This document shows positions 17,263 through 51,525 of a stretch of DNA of 64,000 nucleotides, in pieces; within the stretch, counting starts at the first letter, position 1; each line of letters starts with the position of its first letter. The notes under the pieces were generated by a model, which saw only the letters and a list, made by a program, of their open reading frames with translations, was not told where the DNA came from and did no database searches. Where the stretch lies: the NCBI GenBank assembly GCA_022953095.1, contig JALJCR010000001.1, positions 434,001 through 498,000 on the forward strand, in the 5' to 3' direction. Made by a program: the position numbers and the translations under genes. This DNA is from Qipengyuania sp. ABI-127-1. Lineage in GTDB: Bacteria > Pseudomonadota > Alphaproteobacteria > Sphingomonadales > Sphingomonadaceae.

Positions 17263-18213
17263 TCAGGCGCGCAGCCGCTCGTTGAAGCGGCCATGCTTGC
17301 GATAGCGGACCATCCACCTGTCGAGGAACAGGCCGAGCGGCTTGGGCTCGATCCCGAACTTGGCAAAGCCCGGGCAGTCGCCCGAAGCCACATTGCCCTG
17401 CTTGAGCAGTCTCCACTGGTCGCTGCCCATCGGCGTGCCAGGCAGCGCCGCGAACACTGCGGAAAGTCCGTCGGGCATCGGCAGGAAGCTGCGCTTGCGG
17501 TTTTGCGCTGCCGCAATCGCCTCGTTGATTTCCATCATCGAAAGCTGCTCGGGTCCGCCCAGCTCGTAGGTCTTCCCGCCATGCGTGCCCGGATCTTCGA
17601 GCGCGCGCACCGCCGCTTCGGCGACGTCATCGACATAGACCAGCTGCAGCTTCGAGTCGGGGGCGAAGACCGGCAGCACGGGCAGCGTCGAAATCAGCCC
17701 GGCGAACATGTTGATGAAGTTGTCGTCCTTGCCGAACAATATGCTCGGGCGCAGGATCGTGGCTGTGGGGAAGGCGGCCAGGACCCGCTCTTCACCGAGC
17801 TTCTTGGCCCCGGCATAGGCGATTTCGGTATCCTCGTCGGGCTCTGCGGCGATCGCGCTGACATGCACGAAGGCGCGGGCACCCTCCTGTGCGGCGGCCT
17901 CGGCCATCCAGCCCGGCGCCTCGCCCATCAGGCGGTAAAGATCGCCATCGAACGCACCGACCAAGTTCACGACGGCATCGGCGCCGGCCATGCAGCGTGC
18001 GACCGACTGGCGATCGCTCGCATCGCAGCGCGCGAACTGCATCTGGCCAAGATTGGCGAGTGGCTTCAATTTGAATGCTTTTTCGGGGTTGCGGCTGGCG
18101 ATGCGTACCCGCGCGCCGCGCGTCAGCAGCGCCTGCGCCACGTAATTGCCGATGAAGCCGCTGCCACCCATCAGCACCACCAGCTTGCCGTCCAAAGCGC
18201 CGCTCTTAGCCAT
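17263..18213 (-). CDS. NDUFA9-like NAD(P)-binding protein (atypical SDR)
   Basis: A 316-aa Rossmann-fold protein. It has the nucleotide loop VLMGGSGFIGNYVAQALLTRG, RDASDRQS-type CDASDRQSVARCMAGADAVVNLVG, VHVSAIAA, and RPSILFGKDDNFINMFA. It is of the complex I NDUFA9/39-kDa subunit family, found beside respiratory complex I or as free quinone-associated accessory proteins in alphaproteobacteria. No nuo genes are in the window. A family member acts as an assembly factor or structural subunit with bound NADPH rather than as an enzyme; this copy is not more precisely assignable. The start codon is ATG at 18213. Confidence 0.87.
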   Translation of the reverse strand: MAKSGALDGKLVVLMGGSGFIGNYVAQALLTRGARVRIASRNPEKAFKLKPLANLGQMQFARCDASDRQSVARCMAGADAVVNLVGAFDGDLYRLMGEAPGWMAEAAAQEGARAFVHVSAIAAEPDEDTEIAYAGAKKLGEERVLAAFPTATILRPSILFGKDDNFINMFAGLISTLPVLPVFAPDSKLQLVYVDDVAEAAVRALEDPGTHGGKTYELGGPEQLSMMEINEAIAAAQNRKRSFLPMPDGLSAVFAALPGTPMGSDQWRLLKQGNVASGDCPGFAKFGIEPKPLGLFLDRWMVRYRKHGRFNERLRA

Positions 18214-18336: not shown

Positions 18337-18386
18337 GCGCGCCCCTACCCGCAGCCGTGCTTCGATGACCGGCCAGCGACAAGTGT

Positions 18387-18473
18387 GCCCAGATGGCGGA
18401 ATTGGTAGACGCACCGTCTTCAGGTGGCGGCGCTCGCAAGGGCGTGGAGGTTCGAGTCCTCTTCTGGGCACCA
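18387..18473 (+). tRNA. tRNA-Leu (anticodon CAG)
   Basis: An 87-base leucine tRNA including an encoded CCA. The acceptor stem is GCCCAGA/TCTGGGC, the D arm is GCGGAATTGGTAGACGC, and the anticodon stem-loop CCGTC-TTCAGGT-GGCGG gives anticodon CAG. It has a long variable arm and TTCGAGT in the T loop. Its 3' end (18449-18473) is the attachment site of a genomic island: the following integrase, the duplicated 3' end at 51335 and an inverted copy at 25355 all point to repeated integration here. Confidence 0.97.
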
Positions 18474-18481
18474 TTTGTTCT
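18449..18481 (+). repeat. Island attachment repeat (left, in tRNA-Leu)
   Basis: The last 25 bases of tRNA-Leu plus eight further bases (to atttgttct) recur identically at 51335-51367. Such direct repeats of a tRNA 3' end bound integrated islands. This is the copy that keeps the tRNA intact. Confidence 0.9.
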
Positions 18482-18650
18482 CATCAGAACGTTCCAAAAC
18501 ATTGCAGAAATGGCGGAATTCTGCCATTCTTGACCTCTAGCGCAGAAAGCGAGGTCTTGTTTTGTTCCGCTTTGTTCCAACGTCTGTGGGGGCCTCGGCT
18601 GGGGGCTCCAGCTCAAAAGCCCCCAAATCGCACGAAAGTGAGGCCCCCAA

Positions 18651-19853
18651 ATGAGCCTCAATGTGCAGGAAATCAAAGGCTTCCGGGCTGCCGACAAGTC
18701 ATACAAGAAATACGACTCGCGGGGGCTGCTGCTTTTCGTGAAGCCGAACGGCTCCAAGCTCTGGTATTTCAAGTACCGCTTTGGCGGTAAGGAGAAGAAG
18801 CTGCCCATCGGCGCGTTCCCTGAGATCAGCTTGTCGCAAGCGCGCCAGCTTCGCGACCGAGCACGGCTCAAGGTTTCCGATGGCATCGATCCAATGCTGG
18901 AGCGTAAGCGCAAGAAGGCCAGGATCAAGCTAGGTGCGGAGAACACCTTCGAGGTCATCGCCAATAAGTACATCGACGAGAAGATGGTGCCCGAAGGCAG
19001 GGCAGAGGCCACGCTGCGCAAGGCGCGCTGGTTCCTCGAACTGCTCAAGCCAGCGATCGGCAATATGCCAATCAACGATGTCGATCCGCAGTTGATGCTG
19101 GCGGCGCTCAAGAAACTCGAAGCCAAAGGTAATCTCGAGACAGCGAAGAAGTGCCGCTCCTTCGCAAGCCGGGTGTTCCGGCATGGAGCTGCGCTTGGCC
19201 AGTGCCAAACCGATCCGACTTCGATCCTGCAGGGTGCACTGGTCACGCCCAAAGCACGGCACTACGCGGCGATCCTCGAACCAGAGAAGTTGGGCGGGCT
19301 GCTCCGTGCTATCGATGATTTCGAATGTTACCCGGCGACGAAGTTCGCGCTGAAGATCGCACCCCATGTCTTTGTGCGACCCGGTGAGCTTCGCCACGGC
19401 GAGTGGAACGAGATCGATTGGGACAAGGCCACCTGGACAATACCGGAAGGCAAGATGAAGGCGCGGCGGGCCCATGTGGTGCCGCTATCACGCCAAGTGT
19501 TGGACCTGTTGCGAGAGCTCAAACCAATTACCGGCAGCAAGGGCTACATCTTCCCGGCGTTCCATACGAACCAGCGCCCGATGAGCGAGAATACGATCAA
19601 CGCGGCATTTCGGCGTATGGGGTTCACTAAAGAAGAAGTGACGGCACACGGACTGCGCTCGACTGCTTCAACGATGTTAAATGAAAGCGGCCTCTGGCAT
19701 CCTGACGCCATCGAGCGGGCACTCGCTCATGGTGACAGCAACGCTATTCGTGGCGTCTACAATCGCGGGAACTACTGGGATGAACGCGTAAAGATGGCGC
19801 AATGGTGGAGCGACTATCTTGATGAGCTTCGACAACGCGGAGCGAGTCGCTGA
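18651..19853 (+). CDS. P4-type tyrosine integrase, island 1
   Basis: A 400-aa site-specific recombinase with the N-terminal arm-binding DUF4102 domain (YDSRGLLLFVKPNGSKLWYF, residues 20-100), a core-binding domain and a C-terminal catalytic domain. The catalytic residues are Arg in RPGELRHGEWNEID (about 245), His and Arg in TAHGLRSTASTML (about 330), and the nucleophile Tyr in RGVYNRGNYWDER (about 370). It lies 178 bp downstream of tRNA-Leu, in the position expected for an integrase that targets that tRNA. It is intact and diverged from the two other integrases in the window, which resemble each other more. Confidence 0.94.
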   Translation: MSLNVQEIKGFRAADKSYKKYDSRGLLLFVKPNGSKLWYFKYRFGGKEKKLPIGAFPEISLSQARQLRDRARLKVSDGIDPMLERKRKKARIKLGAENTFEVIANKYIDEKMVPEGRAEATLRKARWFLELLKPAIGNMPINDVDPQLMLAALKKLEAKGNLETAKKCRSFASRVFRHGAALGQCQTDPTSILQGALVTPKARHYAAILEPEKLGGLLRAIDDFECYPATKFALKIAPHVFVRPGELRHGEWNEIDWDKATWTIPEGKMKARRAHVVPLSRQVLDLLRELKPITGSKGYIFPAFHTNQRPMSENTINAAFRRMGFTKEEVTAHGLRSTASTMLNESGLWHPDAIERALAHGDSNAIRGVYNRGNYWDERVKMAQWWSDYLDELRQRGASR

Positions 19854-20115
19854 CTGCAATTTGAGATGGTGGCGGCTTTGCGCCCTATTCCAATCGTTCG
19901 ACCGTAGATCGATAAAATCCAATTATGGCCGTTCAGTTGGGCGCCGTCCGCATGCTTCCTGATGTTGCGTGAGCAAAATAGCGGACAAGCGTCTGTTGAT
20001 TCAGAAATCGCGCACCGGCTACTTAGAGGACGGGAAATTAGGGTAGCCGACATGGTGAAAAATTCTCATTCGCAGCATATCGTCACGCACTGTCGGTCAT
20101 AATAAAGAGAATGAA

Positions 20116-22290
20116 TTGTCCCAGTTCCAGCCAGTATCAGATCTTGCGGCCCGGCTAATTGCCGCCAAAAGCCAGCGGGCGATGGTCGCGCTGCTTCGGA
20201 ACCAAGTCCGCCAACCCACGTCGAAGTCACTCGCCTCGGATGTCAAGGCTCATGTCCAATTGCTGGCAAAGTATCTAAACGATAACCGCGCGGGCGAAGC
20301 AATCGCGACGGCACTCGCCATGATGTTTCTCGACGCGGATCATGCCATCGCCTGCATGCGGCGCGAGGGTGTTTTGCGAGCATCGCGGTATGAATTCCGG
20401 GGATCTCTGATCGGCAGGGTTGCCAAGGCCGCGCTCAGCGTGCGCGAGCTGCTGACGGCGTCCCCTGACCGAATCGTGTATCTCGAATCGGTCGTGGCGC
20501 TTTCGCGCCTCGCCGGCAACGCCCGGGCACTACAGAAAGAGATAGAGACGACGATCCGGTCGCGCCATGCCGTGGTACTGAAGACCGTATTCGTGATGGT
20601 TAACACCTTGTTCTACCACGGCTGGTTGAACGACCATGAGGCAAGCTCCCTGAGCGGCCATCGCTACTCCTCGGAAGAGTATGCTGAAGCGGCCTCGCTC
20701 GTGTTGCGCACCTACGCTTCTATGTTTCCGGTCGATGGCGTCAGCTTCACACATGTGGACACGGACGCTTTCACGAAGAACGCGCTCGTCTACGAGCGGT
20801 TGCTTGTTGCCGCTATCCGCCTTACGAAGTTCAGGGAAGCCGAGTTCTTCATCGACGGCCTTCCGTACCGCGCCGACAGTGCGGGTGAGACCGTCACCAT
20901 CTCCTCCATCGATCCCGACCTCGAGCGCTCCGTCCGACTTGGCTACATCCAGTCACAGAACCAGGGAATGATCCGCTACACGCACCTGCAGCAGACAAAG
21001 CCTGCGATCTCCATGCGCTCTGTTATCGACCGCGGCTTCGAGCGGGGCAGCTTCGGGGAGATGCTTGAGCTGGTTGAACAACCGATACGTAGATTGGTTT
21101 TGCGCCTGCCGGCCGTGCCTGAAATTTTCGAAGAGTTCTTCGCGCGCGACGATCTGTTTCTCGACGAACTCCAAATGCTCCTCGCGCTCGACGTCGACAA
21201 CTTCGGCACGTTCGAGGAATTGATCTTTTCGATCACCGACCACGTCACCTCGATGGACGTCTTTAAGGTGCAGCGCTACTTCAACTTTCTCAGTTGCGCC
21301 TATCAGCGACGTCTTTCGGACCTGAAGGACGAGTCCGAGCGCGGGGAGTTGACCCTGACCTCGACTTTGCTCGTCATCCGTCACGACGACCTTATAAAGC
21401 AGATGGAGCTGATTTTCGGCGATGTGGACAAAGCCGTTGAGATCGTCTCCCTCCTGACGATGGAGCCGGGCGAGCCGCACCTCGACCTACAGTATCGCCC
21501 TTTCTTGGATACCGGGGGCTACTACGTCATAGCGCCGCACGTTGTCGCGGCTTCAAACCTCGTGCGTAACACGATCGTCGCCAACCGTCTCCGGTCTGCC
21601 GCCATTGGCCCCAAGGACCGCGTGGTCCAAGCTGTAACGGAGGCGCTGGGTTGCGCAGGCTTCCTCGTCCATAGCGACTTTGAGGTGAAGGTTGCTGGCC
21701 AAGAGTTGGAACTGGACGTTGTCGCCTGGCGCGATCGGTCGCTCTTCCTGTTCGAGTGCAAAAACGCTTACCATCCGGTGTCCGTCCACGAGATGCGCAA
21801 CAGCTGGGATCATATTCGCAGCGCCAGGAAGCAGCTCGACAAGCGGCACAAGATCCTAGCGAACACCAATAATCGGGAGGTCCTCTTTCAGAAGCTCGGG
21901 TGGGATGTCGACGCGTCCTGCGAAGTCCACACCGGTATTGTCATCGGTAACCGGGTCTTCCACGGAGCAAACTTAAACGGACACCCAATCCGGCAGGCCC
22001 ACGAACTGATCAACGTCCTAACGAGCGGACGCATCGTCGCGGATGAGGACAGCCTATCATTTTGGCGAGGTCCTGACTTCCAAACCGCAGATTTAATTGC
22101 CTATCTTGGTCCCGCGTCGATTGCTACGGATCAGCTGGCGGCGCTGGATCCTCGCGAATGGCGCTATTCGATGGGATACCGAGACCTCGCGTTCTCATCG
22201 TACGTACTCGACATGATTAAGTGGGACCGTGAACTGCGTGCGAGGCATGGACCGCCCGTGATTGGTGGGAGGCGGCAGGGTTTGAGCTGA
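20116..22290 (+). CDS. 724-aa protein with C-terminal nuclease-like domain
   Basis: The family is not recognised by name. Residues 1-500 look mostly alpha-helical without a visible catalytic motif. Residues about 510-580 carry a restriction-endonuclease-like pattern: GFLVHSDFEVKVAGQELELD, with the acid in ELELDVVAW, followed nine residues later by FLFECKNAY (E-x-K). This is the PD-(D/E)XK/NERD-like arrangement D...ExK. The start is a TTG at 20116 (the nearby ATG at 20111 is out of frame). It sits directly behind the island integrase, the usual place for defence cargo, and 99 bp ahead of a second nuclease-like gene on the same strand. A defence role is inference. Confidence 0.6.
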   Translation: MSQFQPVSDLAARLIAAKSQRAMVALLRNQVRQPTSKSLASDVKAHVQLLAKYLNDNRAGEAIATALAMMFLDADHAIACMRREGVLRASRYEFRGSLIGRVAKAALSVRELLTASPDRIVYLESVVALSRLAGNARALQKEIETTIRSRHAVVLKTVFVMVNTLFYHGWLNDHEASSLSGHRYSSEEYAEAASLVLRTYASMFPVDGVSFTHVDTDAFTKNALVYERLLVAAIRLTKFREAEFFIDGLPYRADSAGETVTISSIDPDLERSVRLGYIQSQNQGMIRYTHLQQTKPAISMRSVIDRGFERGSFGEMLELVEQPIRRLVLRLPAVPEIFEEFFARDDLFLDELQMLLALDVDNFGTFEELIFSITDHVTSMDVFKVQRYFNFLSCAYQRRLSDLKDESERGELTLTSTLLVIRHDDLIKQMELIFGDVDKAVEIVSLLTMEPGEPHLDLQYRPFLDTGGYYVIAPHVVAASNLVRNTIVANRLRSAAIGPKDRVVQAVTEALGCAGFLVHSDFEVKVAGQELELDVVAWRDRSLFLFECKNAYHPVSVHEMRNSWDHIRSARKQLDKRHKILANTNNREVLFQKLGWDVDASCEVHTGIVIGNRVFHGANLNGHPIRQAHELINVLTSGRIVADEDSLSFWRGPDFQTADLIAYLGPASIATDQLAALDPREWRYSMGYRDLAFSSYVLDMIKWDRELRARHGPPVIGGRRQGLS

Positions 22291-22389
22291 TCTCGGGAAA
22301 TTGCTTTCGGTTAGATGCCACCGCATCGCTTGTAACTGTCGCCGACCAGTCATTGCTGCTGTGGATCGGTTTGAAGGATTGGGGGATAG

Positions 22390-23961
22390 ATGAGTGGAAG
22401 CCAAGGCAGACAGCCTTCCGATCAACAAAACGAGGGCGATAGCATCGACCTCTTTATATCGCGAGAAGAGTTGATCGCTCGCTTGGCTGACGACGTCCGG
22501 CTTTACGATCCTGATCGCCAGAGCGGCTTCGAGCGGATGTCACGAGAGCGCTTCGAGGCGCTTGCACTCTGGGGCCTGCCGCAGGACTTTAGGGACGAGT
22601 GCTCGCCCACATCCTTCTGGTCAGCCGACCGGGAGCGGCTCCTCGCCGTGGTCTATCTTAAGGGTGGTCCCGGCAAAGTGGGCCTCGCGGTGATCGCTCG
22701 CGATGGCGAGGGACGCTACCGCCCGGTTGGACATCAGCGAGGCCTTCCGACGGTCCGGGCCGCCGAAGACATGCTGCGCGGCAACATGGGGCTATCGGCC
22801 CTCGAACTCAAACCAACCCTAAAGCCATTGCCCGACCAGCCCAAAGGGACCGACCTATTCTCGCCGATCGCCGAAGTAGATGAAACGGCCCTGCATCCCG
22901 GCTTCAGAATCCTTCGAGACGGCGTAGCGCAGCGCGGGGCGAAAGCGCTAATGGCCGAGCTTTCGCGCTGGGTGCCCGACTTGGACGGCAACCTCGCCCG
23001 AGACTTCCAAACGACAGGTTACAGCGCCCGCGTCTGGGAGATTTACCTGTCATTCGCGTTCCGCGAAATGGGCTTCCGGTTACGTCACGATCATCAGTCA
23101 CCCGACTACCACTTGGAGCGAAACGGGATCGAGCTTTTCGTCGAGGCGACTACCGCTAACGCACCCGACACCCGCGCTGTGGCGACAACGGGCGGAGAAC
23201 CGCCTCCCGTTCCTGATGATCGATGGTCATTCCTTGAAAAGGAAATGACACTGAAGTTCGGGTCGCCCCTACATACCAAAGTCGGCAAGCGCTACTGGGA
23301 GCTTGATCACGTCAAGGGAAAGCCATTCGTACTGGCGATCGCCGACTTCCACGCGCAAGCCTCGATGACTTGGTCGCATACAGCGCTGCCTATCTATTTA
23401 TATGGTCGTTCCGCCGCCGTCAGCACCGGACCTGATGGCCGCGAATATGGCGAGGAAAAGCGTATTGACGCCTTCGAGAAGGGCTCGAACCAGATACTTC
23501 CGTTTTTCGAGCAGGATGGGACGGAGAACGTGTCGGCCGTGCTGTTTAGCAACGCGGGTACGATCGCTAAGTTCAACCGCATGGCGGTGCGTGCTGGCTT
23601 TGGTGATCGGTTCGTTACCCTCCGGCGGTCTGGTGGCTGGAACGACCCACGCCCAGACGCCTACGAGGCCATCCCTTTCGATTTTGACGTGGAGGATCCC
23701 GCTTACTGGGAAGGTTGGGCCGACGAACTCGAGCTACACCACAATCCGCGAGCGCTCTACCCCATTGACGACGCGCTGTTTCCTAACATTGCAAACTTCC
23801 GGATCGAGGATGGCGAGGGGGTTTGGAGAGGCCCATCGCCACGTGTCCTATTCTCTCGCACCGTGACGCTCGATCTTCTTGGCCGCGAAATCAACGACGA
23901 TCATCAGCCTGCCGCCGGTGCAGAGGATGCCGCGGGAAAGGCCTCCCGCCGCTCTCCCTAG
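22390..23961 (+). CDS. 523-aa protein with degenerate PD-(D/E)XK-like core
   Basis: The central region (residues about 175-260) has FQTTGYSARVWEIYLSFAF, then SPDYHLERNGIELFVEATT. The spaced E, PD and E-x-T resemble a restriction-endonuclease core whose final lysine is replaced by threonine. The same ARxxExYL ... PDF/Y ... VEATT signature occurs in a family of uncharacterised island proteins of about 500 aa. The N-terminus (1-50) is polar and charged. It follows the 724-aa gene by 99 bp on the same strand, so the two probably form an operon. Loss of the lysine leaves catalytic activity open. The function is unknown; defence is inferred from context. Confidence 0.55.
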   Translation: MSGSQGRQPSDQQNEGDSIDLFISREELIARLADDVRLYDPDRQSGFERMSRERFEALALWGLPQDFRDECSPTSFWSADRERLLAVVYLKGGPGKVGLAVIARDGEGRYRPVGHQRGLPTVRAAEDMLRGNMGLSALELKPTLKPLPDQPKGTDLFSPIAEVDETALHPGFRILRDGVAQRGAKALMAELSRWVPDLDGNLARDFQTTGYSARVWEIYLSFAFREMGFRLRHDHQSPDYHLERNGIELFVEATTANAPDTRAVATTGGEPPPVPDDRWSFLEKEMTLKFGSPLHTKVGKRYWELDHVKGKPFVLAIADFHAQASMTWSHTALPIYLYGRSAAVSTGPDGREYGEEKRIDAFEKGSNQILPFFEQDGTENVSAVLFSNAGTIAKFNRMAVRAGFGDRFVTLRRSGGWNDPRPDAYEAIPFDFDVEDPAYWEGWADELELHHNPRALYPIDDALFPNIANFRIEDGEGVWRGPSPRVLFSRTVTLDLLGREINDDHQPAAGAEDAAGKASRRSP

Positions 23962-24149
23962 TGTTCAGACCGCGCTTTGACCTAAGGACGGTGATACGGC
24001 GCCCCTGACACTTGCCGACACGGAGTTGCATTGCCGATGCGTAATGCAAAGCTGTAAAAACAAAGGCAACTATCGATGAAAGTTCGCTTCTAACGTCTCG
24101 TCGGCTGAAAGCTGTCGATCCGCCAATGGTTCAATTCCAGTCCACCCAC

Positions 24150-24619
24150 TCGAAGGCCGGGCACTAAGCGCCCGGTTCCTTCTTCTCGTCGTCCAACGGC
24201 GTGCGCAGGACGATCCGGCCATTGATAGGCACCACTTCCAATTGAAGCGAAAGCCCTTTGCGGTCGCGGTGGAACCACGCGGCTCCGATGCGGGTCCAGA
24301 AACCCTTGTCGCCCTTGTTGGCGACATGCCAGGCAAGGAATTCCGGCGGGTTAGTCTCCTGCGCGGGTGCGGTATTGCTGCGTGCCATGATGATTTCCTT
24401 TCGTGTCTGGTGGCTCGTTGCACCAACGGAAGGGCCGCACGGCCAAGGGCAGAATTCGTGTTCAACACGGGTGCGGAGCGAACTGGCGCGGGCCGGGCAT
24501 TGAAGGCTGACCGCGTGCGGCCAGTTGGGTGCTTGAGAACGAAGCCGCCCGATCGAAGGGAATTCAAACACATGCCAAACCGTCACACTTGCGCCCTCGA
24601 TCGCTCTCGCCCAAACGTT
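24150..24619 (-). repeat. Repeat unit, copy 1 (74-aa gene plus leader)
   Basis: About 470 bp closely match 39434-39917 in the same orientation. The match covers a 74-aa gene and about 230 bp upstream of it. At 24619/24620 the similarity stops exactly where the truncated integrase begins, so this copy joined the integrase by recombination. Confidence 0.8.
24164..24388 (-). CDS. 74-aa conserved island protein, copy 1
   Basis: A small soluble protein beginning MARSNTAPAQETNPPEF, with a central AWHVANKGDKGFWTRIGAAW and LQLEVVPINGRIVLRTP, ending in an acidic/basic tail. A strong ribosome site (aaaggaaatcatc) precedes the ATG at 24388. A second copy at 39448-39672 differs at only a few residues (PAQ/PSQ, PEFL/PDFL), mainly conservative, so the protein is under selection. 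Such proteins recur with conjugative genes of sphingomonads; the role is unknown. The 230-bp leader upstream is conserved too. Confidence 0.78.
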   Translation of the reverse strand: MARSNTAPAQETNPPEFLAWHVANKGDKGFWTRIGAAWFHRDRKGLSLQLEVVPINGRIVLRTPLDDEKKEPGA

Positions 24620-25198
24620 CAGCATACTGGTCGGATCGGATTTGCAGCGGGTAGTAGCGACACCGTAGCGAAACACGCGGCCTGCGAACGAGCGGCATTT
24701 CTTCGCAGTCTCGTGCTTACCAGTGGCTTCCAGACGTTTGAGAGGAGCCAGGACTTCGAATGGCTCGATCTCGTTGATGGGTCGGTTCCCGATGGCAGGT
24801 GCAAGCTTGTCGAGGAAATAGTTGGCCTTGACGATCGTGCCATCGGCGCGGCCATTCTGGACCATCATCTGTTCAATATACTCACGTGCGACTGCTTCGA
24901 ACGTCTGTGCAGAAAGGAACTCCGCGCGGATTTTCCGCTTCCGCTTCTCAAAAGCCGGGTCGCCCCCTGAAGCAACAGCTCGTCGCGCCTCGTAGGCCGC
25001 GTCTCGCGCTTGCTTGAGGCTGATGTCGGGATAGCTGCCGATGCAGAGCTTCTTTTGCGCGCCGCCGATCCGGTATCGGAAACGCCAAAGTTTACCGCCG
25101 GTCGGCGTGACCTCAACATACAGGCCACGCTCATCGGTTACCTTGTACGGCTTATCCTTGGGCTTGAGTGCGCGGAGGCGAGTATCTGTCAGAGGCAT
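24620..25198 (-). pseudogene. Truncated P4-type integrase
   Basis: This reads MPLTDTRLRALKPKDKPYKV and continues as a close relative of the integrase at 51526 (DUF4102 arm domain, core-binding domain) up to CKSDPTSML, about residue 193. It then runs abruptly into unrelated DNA of the repeat unit. The whole catalytic domain (Arg, His-x-x-Arg, Tyr) is missing, so it cannot recombine DNA. Its 150-bp leader and an att copy remain, on the same reverse strand, at 25199-25400. Confidence 0.9.
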
Positions 25199-25354
25199 GT
25201 GGGGGCCTTTTCATCTGGGCCTTTGCGAAATGGCCTCAAAAGGCCCACAAAAGTGTCTGGAACCCCCGAGAACAGGCGGGACGATCCGGAACGATCCAAG
25301 GGCCAAATCCCTAGGATTTCTGCGGGTTTTATAGATTATTTGGGAGAACGTGAG

Positions 25355-25384
25355 AAGAACAAATGGTGCCAGAAGAGGACTCGA
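25355..25384 (-). repeat. Inverted att-site remnant
   Basis: On the reverse strand this reads the tRNA-Leu 3' end and following bases (cgagtcctcttctg-gcaccatttgttct) with one base deleted. It is followed by about 150 bp nearly identical to the leader of the 51526 integrase. It is the attachment site of the truncated integrase, now inverted relative to the two others. Confidence 0.85.
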
Positions 25385-25422
25385 TCGGGCCGCCTAACAC
25401 GTTGATTTCTGGAGTTCTTCAT

Positions 25423-25650
25423 TCAGCCTCTCAGGCTTAGAACCATCACACTTACCATCAGCCAAGTACGCTGTAGCGGTTCGACGTCAAAACCAGGCAA
25501 CCTCGCGAGATATCGGCTGACTTCTTCGACAGAGTTGCGATCCGGTCTGCGCGGGTTGAGACCCAGACCGCTGTCTGTCAGAACCCAACCGCAACTGGTA
25601 ACGCCTTCAAGCGGAGTTGCGATGATGTCCGGTTTAGCTAGATGCTTCAT
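25423..25650 (-). CDS. Small hypothetical protein coupled to membrane protein
   Basis: A 75-codon frame starting MKHLAKPDIIATPLEGVTSC and ending in a hydrophobic WLMVSVMVLSLRG. Its ATG overlaps the stop of the preceding 80-aa gene by four bases (ATGA), the usual sign of translational coupling. A longer open frame upstream exists but runs antisense-like through the neighbours and is not used here. No family is recognised. It may be a remnant of a longer gene. Confidence 0.4.
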   Translation of the reverse strand: MKHLAKPDIIATPLEGVTSCGWVLTDSGLGLNPRRPDRNSVEEVSRYLARLPGFDVEPLQRTWLMVSVMVLSLRG

Positions 25651-25889
25651 GGGTGCGTCGGCCCTACTTCTCCAGACTGACGTGACGCCCAAAGGCAGAC
25701 TGAGCAAACCAACCCAAGCATCAGCCAGAATGCAGTTAGAACGACCGCGACCATGAATTGGAGCGTTGTCGGTTTGACGCGATCCGCGACCAACCGGTTG
25801 AGCAAAGCGATAGCCGCGCCCATGAAGGTGACCTGTTTCGCGCAGTTCAATGCAACTACCAGCAGGCCCGAGAGAACAAAAATTAGCAT
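25647..25889 (-). CDS. Small two-helix membrane protein
   Basis: An 80-aa protein with two long hydrophobic segments (MLIFVLSGLLVVALNC and FMVAVVLTAFWLMLGLVC) joined by a polar linker (NRLVADRVKP). It lies 95 bp downstream of the patatin-like gene on the same strand and probably belongs to the same transcript. It resembles the first membrane segments of small ion-channel proteins, but no pore sequence (TxGYG-like) follows, so a truncated channel or an independent small membrane protein are both possible. Confidence 0.45.
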   Translation of the reverse strand: MLIFVLSGLLVVALNCAKQVTFMGAAIALLNRLVADRVKPTTLQFMVAVVLTAFWLMLGLVCSVCLWASRQSGEVGPTHP

Positions 25890-25984
25890 TCAGATGCAGC
25901 GTCCGCTGGCATTGAGAGATGCTTTTTGCTGGCCTTCGCAACCCGACGGCCAACGCCGTAGGAGGCCGGCAGGCCCCTACATCA

Positions 25985-27178
25985 TCACTGACGTCCCTGC
26001 TCTTCGCCATGGGCGAACAGGGCCTGCATGAATGCGGAATCGAACTGCTCGTCTGGGAAGGCGTCATCATCGAAATCGTCACCGATCTGGTAGACCGCAA
26101 GCGTTACGCCATGATGGACGGCGAATTCGCGATAGGACCGTAGGATGTTCCTATCGGCATGGGCGATCATGGTTTCGATCGAGCGGCGCAGGATCGAAAA
26201 AGCCGTTGGCTCGACGCCTTCGACCTGCGGCGCAAGGCGGCCATTATACAGAATGGTGAAGGAGCCGTTAGTCACATCCGCTCGCTCACGGAGCTCGGCC
26301 TGTCCCCACAGGATGCTGGGCGGTATCGCGAGGAAGCTTCCTGCGGTGTCGCCGTCAACATGCATTTCGCGGAAGGGCTGCCCGTCCGCCTCGACATCGA
26401 TCATTACGGGCGGCATCAGCGCAGGGACGCTCGAGGAGGCTAGAAGGAGACTCTCGATAAGATGCTCGCGGTTGGGCATCGGCGAGACGGCGATAGAACC
26501 CAGATCCCAGATCGTGCCGCGCTGCGTGTCAAGATTGGTCGTAGTTACCAGAAGGCGGCGACCCTTCCGGTGTTCCTCTACGATCCGCTCGACAAGTTCG
26601 GGCGAAACCTCGCGCTCGATCATTTCGAGCAAGGGACGGCTGGTTGCAAAAGCTGGTCCACCGAGCAGCCCGGAGATCGCACGCTGACGGTAGATGTCGT
26701 CCGCGTCGATTGTCGTGTAGAGGCGGCGCAAAGCGTCGTCCTCGCTTGGACCTAGAAAAGCAAAAGGCGCGATAAGCGCGCCGGTGCTGACCCCGATGAC
26801 GAGATCGAAGTCGGGCCGGTCGCCGCGTTTGCTCCAGCCCGTAAGGAAGCCTGCCGAGAAGGCTCCTTTGTCCGACCCGCTGGAGATGGCCAGCAGGTCG
26901 ATCGGTTCGTCGTCACCCGAGGCTCGCCTCTCCGCCATCCAGCGATCATGCCATGGCCGGATAATCTCGATTGATGCCTCTGTATCGAACCGCGTGCCGG
27001 TGAAATCAACGAGTTGTCCACCCATCCGCGCCGCCGAGGAAACGTCTTCGCGCTCGGGCAGAGTTGCGCAGGCACCGAGCGCGGCAGAAAGGACGATCAA
27101 AAGCATCGCTCTCGGCGATGTCCGTCTTGGTATCCGCGAGGCGATACCAGGCCTGCGTCGCATGCTCCTATTTGCCAT
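25985..27178 (-). CDS. Patatin-like phospholipase lipoprotein
   Basis: A 397-aa protein with an arginine-rich start and a lipoprotein signal (LLIVLSAALGACATLP). The patatin catalytic set is complete: the oxyanion loop ISSGSDKGAFSAGFL, the nucleophile serine in IGVSTGALIAP (GxSxG) and the dyad aspartate in MHVDGDTAG (DG motif). It should be a membrane-anchored serine lipase or acyl hydrolase. The start ATG at 27178 overlaps the last codons of the TetR gene, so the two are coupled. It is divergent from the RND efflux operon. Its association with efflux is unusual and may reflect envelope lipid remodelling. Confidence 0.88.
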   Translation of the reverse strand: MANRSMRRRPGIASRIPRRTSPRAMLLIVLSAALGACATLPEREDVSSAARMGGQLVDFTGTRFDTEASIEIIRPWHDRWMAERRASGDDEPIDLLAISSGSDKGAFSAGFLTGWSKRGDRPDFDLVIGVSTGALIAPFAFLGPSEDDALRRLYTTIDADDIYRQRAISGLLGGPAFATSRPLLEMIEREVSPELVERIVEEHRKGRRLLVTTTNLDTQRGTIWDLGSIAVSPMPNREHLIESLLLASSSVPALMPPVMIDVEADGQPFREMHVDGDTAGSFLAIPPSILWGQAELRERADVTNGSFTILYNGRLAPQVEGVEPTAFSILRRSIETMIAHADRNILRSYREFAVHHGVTLAVYQIGDDFDDDAFPDEQFDSAFMQALFAHGEEQGRQ

Positions 27179-27776
27179 ATCGCGCCATGAAGGTCTGATA
27201 CGCGGCCGCAGCAATCCGGTGACATTCGTCGATCGACGCCTTCTCGCGCGAGCCGTACAAGCGCGGATCGAAAATCCCGACCTTGCAAAGTTCACCCAAT
27301 TGCTGGGCGGCAAGTTCATGATCGTCGCACGCTAGCTCGCCCCGCCCGGCCCATAGCGCGATCATGCTCGCTACTTCGCGGTTGCCGCGTTGGGGGCCGT
27401 TATACATGAAGGTCGAAGTAGCGAGCGGAAAGCGGTCGAAGCCGCCGATGCAGATGCGGCACAGACGCAGCACGTCGTCGTCACGCCCGAACATGCGTGC
27501 GAGGCGCGTGGTGATGACCTTGAGACCTTCGGTCGCGGTCATGTCACGCAATTCCGGTGGTACGATCTCGGTGCGCACCCGGGTCAAGGAATGCTCGACC
27601 ACCGCAACGTAAAGTGCGTTCTTGTCGCGAAAGTGATTGTAGAGCGTCGGCTTGGCGACTTTCGCCTCGCGCGCCACTGCATCCATGCTGGTACCCTCGA
27701 ACCCCTCGCGTACGAACACGCGCTGAGCCCCGGCGAGAATAGCCGCCCGCTTCTTCGTCTGCGTGATCTTGTTCAT
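27168..27776 (-). CDS. TetR-family repressor, likely of the RND operon
   Basis: A 202-aa regulator with an N-terminal TetR helix-turn-helix (ILAGAQRVFVREGFEGTSMD, then VAKPTLYNHFRDKNALY, residues 13-60) and a C-terminal ligand domain. The second part resembles the AcrR C-terminal domain usual for efflux repressors. The start MNKITQTKKR at 27776 fits the family better than the longer reading from 27848. It is divergent from the outer-membrane factor gene with 294 bp between; a palindrome at 28019-28034 is a candidate operator. The patatin gene overlaps its end by 11 bp. Confidence 0.9.
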   Translation of the reverse strand: MNKITQTKKRAAILAGAQRVFVREGFEGTSMDAVAREAKVAKPTLYNHFRDKNALYVAVVEHSLTRVRTEIVPPELRDMTATEGLKVITTRLARMFGRDDDVLRLCRICIGGFDRFPLATSTFMYNGPQRGNREVASMIALWAGRGELACDDHELAAQQLGELCKVGIFDPRLYGSREKASIDECHRIAAAAYQTFMARYGK

Positions 27777-28018
27777 CTGCTCCACTTCGTTCCGATCTGA
27801 AAGTGGCCATAGGCGATTCGGTTTCAGAAAGCCAACCCGAAGGTTCATGATGAACTTTTGGGTAGCTTTTCTGCTTGGCGTTCGGAATCGATATACCTAT
27901 TGATCTCTCGCTAAGTTATTCGACATATTTCGTATCTTCTCAGCGCCTTAACGCGACTTTCGCGCAGGAGCGGCTGCTGAAATCCTTCAGGAACAAGCGA
28001 CTGACTTAGCAAATTCGT

Positions 28019-28034
28019 TCTAGATTGTACTAGA
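28019..28034. promoter_or_regulatory. Candidate TetR operator
   Basis: The inverted repeat TCTAG-ATTGTA-CTAGA lies 37 bp upstream of the outer-membrane factor start and within the divergent TetR/RND promoter region. The position suits a repressor site; binding is not demonstrated. Confidence 0.45.
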
Positions 28035-28070
28035 CGGTTCAGAGCGAATCGCCTAGCAGGCCAGCCCATT

Positions 28071-29528
28071 ATGATCAGACTCACAATGCGACCAGGCCAC
28101 CATCGCCGATGGATAGCCGCCGTTTTTTCGGCGGGTCTGGCAGGCTGCGCCACGGTCGGTCCTGATTACGAGCGGCCTCCTATCGAGGCGACAGCGACCG
28201 ACTGGATCGATCGGGAAAGCGTACCGGTCGCCGAAGCGGAATTCATCGCCTGGTGGCGCAATCTGGGCGATCCGGTGCTCACTCGGCTGGTCGAAGCTTC
28301 GCTGCAGGACAATCTGACGATCCGACAGGCACTCCTTCGGGTCGAGGAAGCGCGGGCGCGACGCGCGCAAATCAGGGCTTCCGCGCTTCCATCGGTCGGA
28401 GCCGATGCCTCCGTCACCGCGCTGCAGCAAAGCCTCAACGCCAATCCGGGTTTTGCACAGATCCCCGGCTTTCAGCGAGAACTTGAAATCTACGATGTCG
28501 GGGGGTCGCTCGCCTGGCAGATCGACCTATGGGGCCAAACGCGCCGCGCTCTGGAAGCGGGCGATGCGCGCATCGAAGGCGCGATTGCAGCCGCCAACGG
28601 TGCACGGCTCGCCGTGGCCATCGAGACGGCTTCGACCTATCTTGCCCTGATCGGATACCAATCCGAGCGCGGCGCGCTTCTCGCCAGCATCGCGGCGCAG
28701 CGCGAACTGCTGGCGCTCTCGAATATTCAGCTTCGCGAGGGCGAAATATCGCGTGCCGACCTGCTGCTCGTTGAAAGCGAGCTCGCCCGCATCGAAGCCG
28801 AGCTTCCGCGCCTCGATGTCGAGATAAGGGCTGCTGCCCTGGCTCTCGGGCCGCTGATCGGCGGGTTGCCGGAACGAGAGATCGCGCTCGCGACCGAGGA
28901 TCGGAACGAGGTCGCGCTGCTCGACGTGCCTGTCGGCCTGCGCGCCGATCTGCTCCGAAGGCGCCCCGATATCGCGCGCGCTGAACGCGAACTGGCGGCC
29001 GAGACCGCCGAGATTGGCGTCGCGAGGGCCGAGCTTTTCCCGCAGCTGCGCCTCAACGCGGCAGGGGGCTTCTCATCGATCGCGCTAGATACGCTCTTCG
29101 ATGGCGACAGCACCAGCTATTCCATCGTGCCGTTTTTGTCGTGGCGCGTCTTCGAAGGCGGTCGAATCCGCGCGGAAATCGATCTCGCTCAGTTGGAAGC
29201 GCGCCGGGCTGCGCTTGCTTACGAGCAAAGCATTCTAACCGCGCTCGAGGAAACCGAGACGGCCATCGCCCGCTACGACCTGGGACGTGAGGCACTTGCA
29301 CTGAGCGAGCGCGCCGCGACCCTTTCGGCAGAAAATTACCGCCTCGCCCGCATCCAGTTCCAGTACGGCGCGATCGACCAGCTTCGCTTGCAAGAGGCTG
29401 AGCGGGGTCTGCGGAATGCGGAACGCGGCCGAGCGATTGCCTATCGCCAGGCGAGTCTTGCCATGGCGGGGCTGTACGCCGCACTCGGCGGCGGCTGGCA
29501 GGCCGCACCATCGGGAGACCCATCGTGA
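28071..29528 (+). CDS. RND efflux outer-membrane lipoprotein (NodT/OprM family)
   Basis: A 485-aa TolC-like outer-membrane factor with a lipoprotein signal (FSAGLAGCATVGPDYERP, Cys at about 25). It has the duplicated OEP helical repeats, with WWRNLGDPVLTRLVEASLQDNL and SLAWQIDLWGQTRRALEAG in the first half and GLRADLLRRRPDIARAEREL in the second. It forms the exit duct of a tripartite pump. It is first in an operon; its stop overlaps the GTG of the adaptor gene by four bases. Confidence 0.94.
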   Translation: MIRLTMRPGHHRRWIAAVFSAGLAGCATVGPDYERPPIEATATDWIDRESVPVAEAEFIAWWRNLGDPVLTRLVEASLQDNLTIRQALLRVEEARARRAQIRASALPSVGADASVTALQQSLNANPGFAQIPGFQRELEIYDVGGSLAWQIDLWGQTRRALEAGDARIEGAIAAANGARLAVAIETASTYLALIGYQSERGALLASIAAQRELLALSNIQLREGEISRADLLLVESELARIEAELPRLDVEIRAAALALGPLIGGLPEREIALATEDRNEVALLDVPVGLRADLLRRRPDIARAERELAAETAEIGVARAELFPQLRLNAAGGFSSIALDTLFDGDSTSYSIVPFLSWRVFEGGRIRAEIDLAQLEARRAALAYEQSILTALEETETAIARYDLGREALALSERAATLSAENYRLARIQFQYGAIDQLRLQEAERGLRNAERGRAIAYRQASLAMAGLYAALGGGWQAAPSGDPS

Positions 29529-30631
29529 AACATACCCTCGCCCTTTTTGGGTCAGCCTTCTTGCTGGCTGGCTGTTCCGAAACGGAAAAACCGCCCGAGC
29601 CCAGACCTGTCGCCTGGGTCGAAGTCGGCGCTTCGGAAACCACATCCGACGATCAAGTGACCTTCCCGGCGCGCGTACGCGCCGAACAGCGCGCGTCACT
29701 CAGCTTCGAAGTCGGTGGGACCCTCACCTCCGTACGCGCCGAGATCGGCGATCGGGTCGGACGCGGCGCGGTGGTCGCGACACTCGATTCCGCGACCTAT
29801 CGCTTCAATGCCGCGTCTGCCGACGCGCAGGTCGTCGAAACCCGCGCGCGGCTTGCGCGCGCCCGACAGGAAGCGGAGCGACAGCGCGCGCTCTTTGCCG
29901 AGGGTGCAACCTCCGAGACGCGGCTGGAGACCGCCGATGCCGAGGTAAACAGTCTCGAGGCCCTTCTAGATGCCGGGCAGGCGCAGGCTGGCTCGGCGCG
30001 CGAGACGCTTTCCGATACCCGATTGCGCGCCCCCTTTTCGGGTCGTGTGGCGCGCAGGATCGTCGAGCCGGGCACCCAGGTCTCCCCCGGCCAGCCGGTG
30101 CTCGAGCTCGACGGTTTCGGAACCGAAGTGGTCTTCAGCGTCCCCGGAACGCTGCGCGATCGGCTTGCCACCGGTCAATCGGTCGAGGTGCTCCGACCGG
30201 GACGCGACGTGCCAGCTCTTGCGGCGACCATCACCGAGATTTCCAGCCGCGGCAGCGGGCCGGGCGCCTTCGAAATCGTCGCACGGGTGATGGCCGGTGA
30301 AGGGACGATCGAGCCCGGCGAGGTGGCCGAGGTTCGCCTGTCTCGCGACGCCGGTAACGAAGAACCGCGGCCACAGTCCGCCACTTACGCGATACCGCTG
30401 ACCGCCATCATGCCCACCGGTCCCGATCGCGGAGAGGTATGGGTCGTCGACACGCAAACCGATAAAGTTTCCGCGCGCACCATCCGGTTCGAAGCGGCGA
30501 GCGAGAACCGCGTTACGGTAACGAGCGGGCTGAAGAGCGGCGACGTCGTCGTCAGCAAGGGAGCAGCCTTTCTGCAAACCGGTGAGCGCGTCAGTCTGAT
30601 CGGCGCCGGCGCGCGGCGGTTCGCATCGTGA
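29525..30631 (+). CDS. RND efflux periplasmic adaptor (lipoprotein)
   Basis: A 368-aa membrane-fusion protein. It has a lipoprotein signal (LFGSAFLLAGC), a barrel-sandwich domain (RASLSFEVGGTLTSVRAEIG), a helical hairpin (residues 85-145, RLARARQEAERQRALFAEGA) and the second lipoyl half DTRLRAPFSGRVARRIVEPG. A beta-barrel and a membrane-proximal domain with PTGPDRGEVWVVD follow. It joins the inner pump to the outer-membrane duct. The start is GTG at 29525 and the end overlaps the pump gene (GTGA), so the three genes are translationally coupled. Confidence 0.94.
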   Translation: MKHTLALFGSAFLLAGCSETEKPPEPRPVAWVEVGASETTSDDQVTFPARVRAEQRASLSFEVGGTLTSVRAEIGDRVGRGAVVATLDSATYRFNAASADAQVVETRARLARARQEAERQRALFAEGATSETRLETADAEVNSLEALLDAGQAQAGSARETLSDTRLRAPFSGRVARRIVEPGTQVSPGQPVLELDGFGTEVVFSVPGTLRDRLATGQSVEVLRPGRDVPALAATITEISSRGSGPGAFEIVARVMAGEGTIEPGEVAEVRLSRDAGNEEPRPQSATYAIPLTAIMPTGPDRGEVWVVDTQTDKVSARTIRFEAASENRVTVTSGLKSGDVVVSKGAAFLQTGERVSLIGAGARRFAS

Positions 30632-33600
30632 GCAATCTTTCGGAACTCGGCTTCCGCTACCGCGCGGCGGTTTTACTCATCGTTGTGCTCGCGATGATCT
30701 ACGGCGTCGCGAGCTATTTCACGCTTCCCGCGCGCGAGGACCCCACGATCACTATCCGCGAAGCCGTGGTCGTTACCGCGCATCCGGGGATGGACGCGAC
30801 ACGGGTCGAGACCCTCATCACCACCCCGCTCGCCGAAGCTATCAAGACGATGCCCGAGGTCGACGAAGTGCGTGCCACTTCAATGGAGGGACAATCGATT
30901 ATCCATGCCGAAGTCGCCTTCGCCACCGACGATCTTGATCAGGTGTGGGACGAACTGGACGAAAAGGTCGAGGAGACTGTGGGCCAGTTCCCTGAAGGTA
31001 CGATGGCGCCAATCATCAACGACGAGTTCGGCGATGTCGCGGTCATTACGCTGGCGTTGCAATCTGCCGATTTCCCGATGGACGAGCTGGGCGATCTTGC
31101 GGAGCATGTGCGCGACCAGCTCTACACCATTCCCGGCACCAAGCGCGTCGACATCCTGGGTCGACCGCAGGAGCGGGTCTATATCGAGATGAGCAATGCG
31201 GTGCTCGCCCAACTCGGCGTTCCGCTCGATGCGGTCGCTGCGGCGCTCGCACAGCAGAACGTCGTGGCGCCCGGTGGCGCAATCGAGACCGAAAGCCGCC
31301 GATTGTCGATCGAACCGTCGGGCGCCTTCGAAACACTTGAAGACGTCAGAAACCTTTATCTCGACCTCGGCCCGGCAGGGACCATCCGGCTCGGCGATTA
31401 CGCGCAGGTCAGCAAACGATCTATCGATCCTCCGTTGCAGCGCGCCTATTTCAACGGTGATCCTGCCATCGTCTTCGCCATCTCGATGGACGAGGCGCAA
31501 AGCGTGATCAACTACGCCGATCGCGCGCAGGAAACGATCGACGACGTGCGCCAGTCGCTGCCCGCGGGCATAACGCTTGAAACCATGACCTGGCAGGCCG
31601 AGCAGGTGAAGAACGCTGTCTACGGCGTTAGCTTCAACGTCCTCCAGACGTTCGCCATCGTGCTTGCGACCATGATCCTCTTCCTTGGCCTTCGCACGGG
31701 GCTCGTAATCGGCGCAGTGGTTCCTGCGGTCGTGCTGATCACACTCGCAATCATGGGCATGTACGGCATCAAGCTAGAGCGTATGAGCCTTGCAACCATC
31801 GTTATCGCGCTCGGCCTGCTGGTCGATAACGGCATTGTGATCGCGGAGGATTTCGAACAGCGCCTCGCCGAAGGCATCGACCGGCGCAAGGCTATCGGTC
31901 AGACGGGCGGAGAACTCGCCGGGCCGCTCCTCGCGTCGACACTCACCATTATCCTTGTGTTCCTGCCGCTCATGCTCGCGCAGCAGGAATCGGGTGAATA
32001 CACGCGCAACATTTCGCTCGTCATCCTGATCGCTCTGTCGAGCTCTTGGCTGATCGCGGTCACGGTGATCCCCACCCTGTGCTATTGGTTCGCCAGGCCA
32101 CCCGAGGAGCAACAGAAGGGCAAGATCAGGGCCAAGGTTGACGAAACGTTCGACTGGGGATCGGCGCGCTACGAGAAGCTTCTTCGCTGGGCGCTCGCGC
32201 ATCGCAAGCTCTATCTTGGCGGCATGGCCGCGCTGTTTGCTATCGCAGCGGCATCGCTGCAGCTGGTTCCGCAACAATTCTTCCCCTCGTCCGACCGTGC
32301 GCAGATACTCGTCTATGCCGACATGCCCGTAGGAACCTCGAGCGTTGCGATGGACGAAAAGGTTCAGGCGATCTCCGAGTTCATTGACGATGACGAGCGC
32401 TATCCAGACTTCGACAGCGTGGCTTCCTATTCAGGGTTTGGGGGACCGCGCTTCGTGCTGTCGCTCGCACCATCGGACCCAGCCCCCAATAGGGGTTTCC
32501 TCGTCATCAACGCGAAGGACGCGGAGGTGCGCGATGCCGGTGTCGAGCAATTGCGGCAGGACATGGCCGTGGCCTTTCCCGACACTCGGATGCGGATCGC
32601 GGGGATGTTCCTCGGGCCGAGCGATCCCAACGTGATCCAGGTGCAGGTTCGCGGCCCGGACCCCGATGTCCTGCTTGAAACGGGCGACAAGCTCGCGGGC
32701 ATCCTGCGCGAGGTCGAAGGGACGATCGACATCTTCTCCGATTGGGAAGAACCGTCCATGCAATACAGGGTCGAGGTCGACCAAGCGGCCGCGCGTGCGG
32801 CGGGCGTGACCTCGGCCGACGTCTCGCGTGCGCTCACGACCTATTTCTCGGGGCAATCCGTAGGCGTCTATCGCGACGGCGATGATCTCGCGCCGATCGT
32901 CATTCGTGCTCCCGAAATCGAGCGCACCGATCCGGCCCGACTGGAAGCGGTGACGCTTGTCGGGGCGGAAGGAGCGGTCGTACAGTTGGGTGAAGTAGCG
33001 ATGGCTTCGCTTGTCCCGCAACGGGGACGCATCCAGAGCGAGAACCTGATCAAGACGCTCACGGTCGAAGCGCGTCCTACCTCGGTCACCCCGCAGGACA
33101 TGGTTCCGATGGTGCAGGACAAGCTCGACGAGCTCGAGGCGATGCTGCCGCCGGGTCATCATATAGAATGGGACGGCATTATCGCCGAGAGCTCGGAAGG
33201 CACCAGCGCGCTGCTCGCCAATCTGCCCCTGATGATGGGGCTGATCGTCATCATGCTGGTGATCCAGTTCGGTGCGTTCCGACAGGCCGGTGTCGTTCTC
33301 CTAGTCGTTCCTCTGGGCGTGATCGGTGCGGCAGCCGGGCTTCATATCATGCAGGCCGATTTCGGCTTCATGGTGATCCTCGGCCTGTTCGCTCTGTTTG
33401 GCATTATCATCAACAATGCCATCGTTCTCGTCGACCGCTGCGAGATCGAGCGCAGTGAAGCGGAGAAACGTGCACACGATGAAGGCAAAACGCGCGACGA
33501 TGCTGACGTTGAGCAAGTAGCCGAAGCGGTGGTCCAGGCCGGCATGCGCCGGTTCCGACCAATCCTGATGACGACGATCACCACGATCCTCGGACTCCTA

Positions 33601-33756: not shown

Positions 33757-33787
33757 TGATTGTACCGTCAACATCCGGGGCTCGTAA

Positions 33788-34459
33788 TTGGCATTCGACA
33801 TTCGTCAACTAAGATATGCAATCGCTGCAGCGGATCACGGCAGCTTTTATCGCGCCGCCCGCGCCCTTGATGTTGAACAATCAACGCTCAGTCGCTCAGT
33901 TATGAAGCTCGAACGATCGGTCGGCGCTCAGCTATTCTTGAGGTCACACTCGGGTGTAGCTCCAACGACCGCCGGGTTGCGATTTCTGCGCAGCGCCCGA
34001 CCTATGGTCGCCAATGCGGACCGGATGATCGCCAACACGCGCGCGGCGGGCAGTGGCCGTGCAGGAGGTTTCGTTGTCGGGTTCAACAACTCCGTCTCTG
34101 CTGGAAACCTTCGTGCTACGCTGGTCGCCGCGCAACGCGAGAACCCTGACCTTAAAATCAACGGCGTCGAATCGGACCGCAGTGCACTTTTCGCGGGTCT
34201 CGACAGCGGCGAGATCGATATAGCCATCTTGATGGGCGAGATCGCCCGCGATGATTGTCGGCACGCCTCGTTCTGGAGCGAGCACGTCGTCGCTGCGATG
34301 TCGAAGGGTCACGCACTCTATGAGCGTGACACTGTCAACTGGACTGATCTGCGTGGGCAGCGCTTTATGCTGCCGACCGCCGATCCCGGCCCGGACATCC
34401 GCGACATGCTGATCGGTATGTCCCCCGTCAGCACCTATGGCACAGATTTGAGGTTGTGA
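33788..34459 (+). pseudogene. LysR-family regulator, truncated by IS
   Basis: The first 217 or so residues of a LysR regulator are present: the helix-turn-helix LRYAIAAADHGSFYRAARAL and QSTLSRSVMKLERSVGAQLF, then half of the effector domain. About 80-90 C-terminal residues of a normal 300-aa LysR are missing. The frame runs into the IS3-type element at about 34438 and stops at 34459. The start is a TTG at 33788. The missing part is not found beyond the IS. Confidence 0.85.
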
Positions 34460-34503
34460 TTCAAGGAGGATTTGGGCTTCGTCGTAGTGACGAAGGAACG
34501 AAG

Positions 34504-49828: not shown

Positions 49829-49832
49829 TTTC

Positions 49833-51334: not shown

Positions 51335-51367
51335 GGTTCGAGTCCTCTTCTGGGCACCATTTGTTCT
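51335..51367 (+). repeat. Island attachment repeat (right end of island 1)
   Basis: An identical 33-bp copy of the tRNA-Leu 3' end and following bases at 18449-18481. Only the 3' end of a tRNA is present here. It marks the junction between island 1 and a second integrase module that starts 159 bp later. Confidence 0.92.
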
Positions 51368-51525
51368 TCTCATGTTCTCCCAAATAATCTATAAAACCCG
51401 CAGAAATCCTAGGGATTTGGCCCTTGGATCGTTCCGGATCGTCCCGCCTGTTCTCGGGGGTTCCAGACATTTTTGCGGGCCTTTTGCGGGCCTTTGCGAA
51501 AACCACATTGGGAAAAGGCCCGCAC

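Follow-up and report, generated by a model that had tools for sequence, protein, structure and literature searches.

What do the two adjacent genes directly behind the integrase of a genomic island encode, and do their products act together? This question is raised by a 64,000-nucleotide stretch of the genome of Qipengyuania sp. ABI-127-1 (contig JALJCR010000001.1, positions 434,001 to 498,000; hereafter the window, to which all coordinates refer unless another locus is named). Here, an open reading frame (ORF) for a protein of 724 residues with a TTG start (P1, 20116-22290, plus strand) is followed after 99 bp, on the same strand, by an ORF for a protein of 523 residues with an ATG start (P2, 22390-23961). 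Our analysis indicates that P1 and P2 are probably separate anti-phage proteins that do not depend on one another and lie side by side on a recently transferred 32.9-kb island. P2 is a PD-T7-1 family protein, and P1 belongs to an unnamed family that combines a helical region with a C-terminal, NERD-like PD-(D/E)XK domain.

The positions, common strand, and spacing that an earlier note on this DNA had given for the two ORFs behind the island integrase proved correct, and the motifs it had quoted are all present in the translations (ELELDVVAW and LFECKNAY in P1; VWEIYL, SPDY, and LFVEATT in P2). Both P1 and P2 are real genes, with motifs beyond chance, because relatives exist and because the ratio of nonsynonymous to synonymous substitution rates (dN/dS) of P1 is 0.12, 0.13, and 0.09 in comparison with three relatives. 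The TTG start of P1 is retained in both of its 80% identical relatives. Promoter-like (0) and terminator-like (6) patterns between 19800 and 24200 did not exceed those in shuffled sequence. Furthermore, the nuclease-type cores that had been noted in both proteins are borne out by conserved residues and by the order of the predicted structural elements.

For P2, profile searches provided a clear assignment. Residues 49-494 match the PADLOC model of PD-T7-1 (PDLC04073) with an E-value (E) of 1.6e-117 over 446 residues, and the match spans positions 3-447 of the 452 in the model. P2 also shares 37% identity over 442 residues with a protein of E. coli, which itself scores as PD-T7-1 with E 1.3e-196 and has phage genes for neighbours, a replication endonuclease on one side and a portal gene on the other. 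Judged by its sequence, P2 is thus a full-length member of the already known PD-T7-1 family. The earlier note saw no match of either protein to a named defence system; this does not hold for P2, because PD-T7-1 is a phage-tested family. P2 residues 155-491 are also matched by the PADLOC model of PD-T7-5 (PDLC04110, E 2.3e-43); however, P2 scores far better with PD-T7-1, whose match also takes in the N-terminal domain. Since both P2 and the E. coli protein match both models, a relationship between the two families seems likely at the sequence level. In PHROGs, P2 corresponds to phrog_8571, annotated as function unknown, and a search of NCBIfam returned no match to P2.

PD-T7-1 is probably a one-gene system without a fixed partner, although the text on PD-T7-1 does not state so. 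With respect to its activity, Vassallo et al. 2022 validated PD-T7-1 in E. coli by phage challenge and found that it protected better from T-even phages than from T7 (PMC9519451). When expressed in K-12, it gave protection against one Teseptimavirus, and T7 plaques were smaller (PMC12409345). Both PD-T7-1 and PD-T7-5 are classed under PD(D/E)XK (PMC10952713), and a low-probability RmuC-like prediction is mentioned (PMC10270631). P2 resembles PD-T7-1 in its nearly full-length profile match, in the same invariant E..PD..ExT..K core, and in that its family, too, rides on mobile elements and prophage-like regions: relatives were found in 103 plasmid records, at 42 viral-contig loci, and in 13 phage records. 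The viral-contig loci were recovered with alignment queries, which also gave 1 P1 locus, whereas single-sequence queries matched nothing. Within the order, 18 of 396 genomes, including that of the window, carry P2, although 4 of these 18 are short matches (E 5e-9 to 2e-7). Differences from PD-T7-1 comprise about 45 additional N-terminal and about 25 additional C-terminal residues, mostly modelled with low confidence, and an identity of 26-43% to the relatives compared, near-identical copies of the island apart.

The restriction-endonuclease-like core of P2 spans residues 211-318 (23020-23343, plus strand) and includes E217, P238-D239, E252-x-T254, K289, and K297. Its conservation was assessed in 36 distinct family sequences from two alignments, one of 13 sequences (the window with plasmid and genome relatives, 12 further loci with the gene on the plus strand) and one of 24 sequences (the window with viral-contig relatives, for which the 42 loci were reduced to 25 of at least 420 residues and less than 90% alike, 23 of them used). 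E217, P238, D239, and E252 are invariant in all 36, as is K297, while K289 is K or R with the exception of one I. Two positions after E252, where the lysine of an ExK motif would be expected, the aligned sequences have T, V, or A, and none has K. The earlier note had taken P2 for the degenerate partner of an active nuclease; this reading is ruled out, since the ExT-type state is fixed in 36 of 36 sequences and is therefore a family trait rather than decay in this copy. In the AlphaFold2 model of P2 (mean predicted local distance difference test score [pLDDT] 80.5), a mixed alpha/beta domain at about residues 45-140 precedes the core, E217 lies in helix 211-226, and D239 just ahead of strand 240-244; strand 247-255 contains E252, and helix 278-299, which is followed by strand 313-318, contains K297. 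As modelled, this is the usual order of helices and strands in restriction-endonuclease-like folds. P2 would resemble PD-T7-1 in its action, its N-terminal mixed alpha/beta domain being joined to a metal-dependent core of the restriction-endonuclease type. The metal would be held by E217, D239, and E252, and a lysine of the next helix, K297 or else K289, would replace the usual ExK lysine. K297 is our candidate for a relocated catalytic lysine, and the fixed absence of the ExK lysine throughout the family makes it a concrete residue to probe in PD-T7-1.

With P2 assigned to a tested defence family, what is left to explain is P1 alone. Its relatives are 28-80% identical over most of the length. 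The AlphaFold2 model (pLDDT 81.7) is mainly helical up to about residue 430 and ends in a C-terminal PD-(D/E)XK core at about residues 501-635 (21616-22020, plus strand), modelled as helix 502-513, strands 517-526, 529-539, and 542-549, helix 557-580, and strand 603-610. Every aligned sequence retains the putative active-site residues D534, E547, and K549 (10 of 10 and 12 of 12). Many of the rows that VIA-align 2 returned for residues of about 493-670 are restriction-endonuclease-like nucleases with Z 5-8. The rows listed for P1 include the restriction enzymes R.BspD6I2 (7.7) and FokI (7.5), followed by Cdn1, Can2, Card1, McrBC, and SduA (5.8-6.7); of these, the restriction enzymes, Can2, Card1, McrBC, and SduA align to the C-terminal domain. 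The predicted fold and the D...ExK triad together place P1 in the PD-(D/E)XK superfamily, as far as the model can tell.

At the level of families, P1 has no match in NCBIfam or PHROGs, and the Pfam NERD model PF08378 scores 18.8 bits, under its gathering cut-off of 22.1, while 3 of 12 members of the P1 family reach E 0.01 or better with it. The PADLOC model of the viperin-associated NERD protein (PDLC02906) matches P1 residues 440-586 (E 7.5e-6, model positions 365-483 of 542) and 10 of the 12 family members at E of at most 0.01 (best 5.3e-10). The nuclease and the stretch leading into it are thus shared with that protein; however, the match of P1 is partial and does not extend over the full length of the model, and viperin is not annotated in the six plasmid stretches around P1 relatives. 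The sole sequence match of the P1 profile in the PDB is AF1548 (1y88, E 2.2e-4, profile positions 504-554), which relates the nuclease stretch to NERD/Hjc-type PD-(D/E)XK domains, although the AF1548 chain has 199 residues and P1 carries a 430-residue helical region in front. The P1 family is consequently unnamed in PADLOC 2023, Pfam, NCBIfam, and PHROGs; a word-based literature search would miss other names. A further protein of 724 residues, encoded at locus L094 (229-2403 of that locus), is laid out much like P1, with which it shares 18% identity. It has its own plasmid relatives, including Gram-positive ones, and P1 may therefore belong, as one branch, to a larger family.

P1 is rare and scattered. 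Including the genome of the window, it was found in 3 of 396 genomes of the order and in 1 of 289 genomes of the class sample; in the phylum sample, it was found in 3 of 398, one being a fragment with a stop and one a weak, short match. Phage records contained no match to P1. Eight plasmid records carry P1 relatives, 7 of which are typed as conjugative or mobilizable; two of the eight (H6 and H8) are unannotated and lie outside the neighbourhood comparison. The close P1 family represents 13 contexts, with L004, L005, L006, L012, and L013 merged (three by annotation, two by gene order). A named defence system lies nearby in 5 of these 13: PD-T7-1 in the form of P2 in this island, a type I restriction-modification system together with a PD-T4-6-like kinase in L003, AbiE (AbiEii) with a HEPN/Toprim protein in L008, Septu PtuA-PtuB directly upstream in L016, and a type IIG restriction-modification system in L092. 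Moreover, a caspase-domain gene (Pfam Peptidase_C14, 4.7e-39) lies immediately upstream in L015 (4353-8160 of that locus), an ATPase with an HSDR_N-like domain upstream in L011, and a HATPase-domain gene upstream in L007. Among the subset of neighbours scanned in L014, L017, L018, and L019, nothing strong was found near the P1 relatives, and no named defence system is listed for the distant loci L094 (2.5 kb only), L096 (with toxin-antitoxin genes), and L097. In L016 (2592-8199 of that locus), the P1 relative comes directly after PtuA and PtuB, on the same strand and within tens of bases, and the genes possibly form a read-through unit.

The proposal of a sensor-effector pair made by the earlier note can be judged from a survey of co-occurrence. 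P1 relatives are absent from all 59 P2 loci surveyed (5.4-18 kb, mean 9.8 kb). These comprise the full set of 42 viral loci, 9 loci from the 103 plasmid records, and 8 from the 16 genomes in which P2 occurs but this island does not. P2 relatives, in turn, occur in 2 of 21 P1 loci (L009 and L010), both being copies of this same island. At the genome level, the 396 genomes of the order include 18 with P2, 3 with P1, and 2 with both, namely that of the window and G423, which carries the same island. A fixed P1-P2 pair is rejected because of these locus and genome counts. Homologues that never co-occur had been named in advance as the outcome that would speak against the pair, and the survey comes close to it, the only co-occurrence being in copies of this island. 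One could still suppose that P1 and P2 are a newly assembled two-gene system of this island lineage, with mutually dependent sensor and effector. In its favour, the two genes stand together, 99 bp apart on one strand, in three genomes and have hardly changed: compared with the window, L009 and L010 differ by 0 and 2 nucleotides in P1, by 1 and 1 in P2, and by 0-2 each in INT1, the island integrase. This joint travel leaves room for a functional link within this island, and among the 59 P2 loci some are near-duplicates and some have short flanks; both points count against the independence of the two proteins. However, one recent spread of the island accounts for the shared presence in three genomes, the 80% identical P1 relatives (L003 and L011) have no P2 within 6-7 kb, PD-T7-1 is probably a one-gene system, and the counts of 0 of 59 and 2 of 21 speak against a pair; we regard such a newly assembled system as very unlikely. 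A Xanthomonas plasmid (L023, 4218-8410 of that locus) has the same layout as this island with another middle gene, i.e., an integrase, a SEC-C protein, and PD-T7-1. The SEC-C protein was considered as a counterpart of P1 and rejected (hhalign probability 0.4%, no profile similarity).

Two further explanations concern P1 itself. The first, which is compatible with independent defence proteins and would give the P1 family a name, is that P1 is a shorter branch of the Upx family without the first approximately 770 residues. Upx, a PD-(D/E)XK defence protein, was reportedly first described by Gao et al. in 2020. Its cryo-electron microscopy structure 9wuf is the best structural match of P1 in VIA-align 2 (Z 11.4, 356 residues), well above the next row (Z 7.7), and the alignment of P1 131-635 to Upx 768-1272 extends beyond the nuclease over a large part of the helical region. 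Two sources name Upx as an anti-phage system (PMC10855318, PMC12629846). However, the root-mean-square deviation of this alignment is 6.5 and the identity 13%, the target chain has 1212 residues compared to 724 in P1, no Upx chain appeared in PDB sequence and profile searches with P1 at E up to 5 or 10, and 9wuf is not among the best 50 Foldseek rows. Helical models can reach Z 13 by chance, and in view of this and of the missing Foldseek match, Upx is a lead and not a classification; a place of P1 in the Upx family is conceivable, if doubtful. The other explanation holds that P1 is a DNA-processing or transfer-related nuclease of mobile elements, serving, e.g., plasmid competition rather than defence. 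This would agree with the prevalence of conjugative or mobilizable types among the plasmid records and with an error-prone polymerase cassette near P1 relatives in three annotated plasmids, whereas the sporadic presence of P1 in order, phylum, and class and its varied contexts, in which no fixed partner gene was noticed, argue against it, and we consider it unlikely. A nuclease fused to a regulatory region is a common layout of defence proteins.

Taking P1 and P2 as two separate defence proteins, we infer from the layout, the conserved site, and the context that P1 could be a self-contained sensor-nuclease. Its conserved helical region (1-430) may detect infection, by way of phage DNA or some component of the phage, and would hold or release the C-terminal PD-(D/E)XK domain with D534, E547, and K549; once released, this domain would cut DNA. 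At a little less than even confidence, we further propose that P1 stands for a family, as yet without a name and widely scattered, of defence nucleases made of a single protein. They would consist of a helical sensor and a NERD-like PD-(D/E)XK domain, be compact relatives of Upx and of the viperin-associated NERD protein, and move between islands and plasmids as a unit; the defence genes close to them vary and include Septu, AbiE, type I and type IIG restriction, PD-T7-1, and a caspase-domain gene. If P1 is defensive, it adds a testable single-gene nuclease to the list of defence systems. It may also connect smaller proteins without a name in PADLOC 2023, Pfam, NCBIfam, and PHROGs with Upx, the structure of which became available in 2026.

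Several observations weigh against this interpretation. The putative defence role of P1 has been deduced from sequence, model, and gene context, and 8 of the 13 contexts of the close family yielded no named system. While 5 of 30 scanned P1 neighbours reach a PADLOC E of 1e-20 or better, 10 of the 30 had been chosen after annotations or earlier matches were seen. The remaining 20 were selected from ORF lists, in most cases for their length, and contribute 2 such matches, one of which (L092) had already been recognised by eye. A control set of 42 mechanically called ORFs, drawn from five stretches of the host chromosome itself, gave at most 2. The neighbourhoods of P1 thus suggest a defence role without showing enrichment. 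On the structural side, neither model had a match in the PDB when searched with Foldseek at E 0.001, and no viral model matched P1 at this threshold. The restriction-endonuclease fold that had been anticipated for both proteins is supported by structure prediction for P1; for P2, the helix-strand order fits, while fold matches are weak, as VIA-align 2 gave no good match to the nuclease core and XisH (2okf, Z 4.8, 119 residues aligned) is the one such row noticed.

The mobility of the locus is shown by sequence comparison. A tRNA-Leu(CAG) gene (18387-18473, plus strand) is the insertion target and precedes INT1 (18651-19853, plus strand), a tyrosine integrase with the Pfam domains Arm-DNA-bind_3, Phage_int_M, and Phage_integrase (arm-binding, central, and catalytic), whose ORF ends 262 bp ahead of P1. 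A 33-bp attachment repeat runs from the 3' end of the tRNA gene onward (18449-18481, plus strand) and recurs at the far border of the insertion (51335-51367, plus strand), delimiting an island of 32.9 kb (18449-51335) with P1 and P2 at its tRNA end. Among 15 congeners, selected as the best left-flank matches, the flanks are contiguous in 8 and overlap by exactly the 33-bp repeat, although in 1 of these 8 the right flank comprises only 107 bp at a contig end. In 2 congeners, the flanks are about 24-26 kb apart, and in 5 the tRNA match has the length of the attachment site only, two of these having a 66% right-flank match close by. In G423, which belongs to another genus, the region 18377-34829 is 99.7-100% identical up to the end of the contig, the island copy being broken by about 1.3 kb of other DNA; by its coordinates, L010 is the same place as this G423 island. 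The adjoining host DNA (17274-18192) is 65% identical to the window, and because of this difference in identity the sequence comparison points to a recent transfer of the island between genera. The mobile island with defence cargo that had been postulated is thus substantiated by the 33-bp repeats, the flanks of the congeners, and the PD-T7-1 member.

Beyond P2, the island carries a truncated integrase without a catalytic-domain match in Pfam (INT2, 24164-25198, minus strand), upstream of which lies an inverted copy of the tRNA-Leu attachment sequence (25351-25384, minus strand). To the right of the island, a third integrase-like ORF (51424-52749) shows 67.9% DNA identity to INT1 over 893 bp (G423 copy), and the INT2 region (24164-25384) is 88.8% identical over 774 bp to this third integrase region. 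Because of this resemblance, the left end of an older element seems, by sequence, to have been inverted into the island. In 8 of the 15 congeners, DNA of the third-integrase side lies directly at the tRNA gene, and the island is therefore stacked in front of an older insertion. The remaining cargo includes a patatin (25985-27319, Pfam) and, as recognised by eye from the translations, an RND efflux operon (28071-33756), a MobF-like relaxase (42321-45131), a TraD-like ATPase (45068-46888), and transposases. Finally, an ORF at 49148-49906 resembles, by eye, an AbiEii-type nucleotidyltransferase and possibly represents additional defence or toxin-antitoxin cargo.

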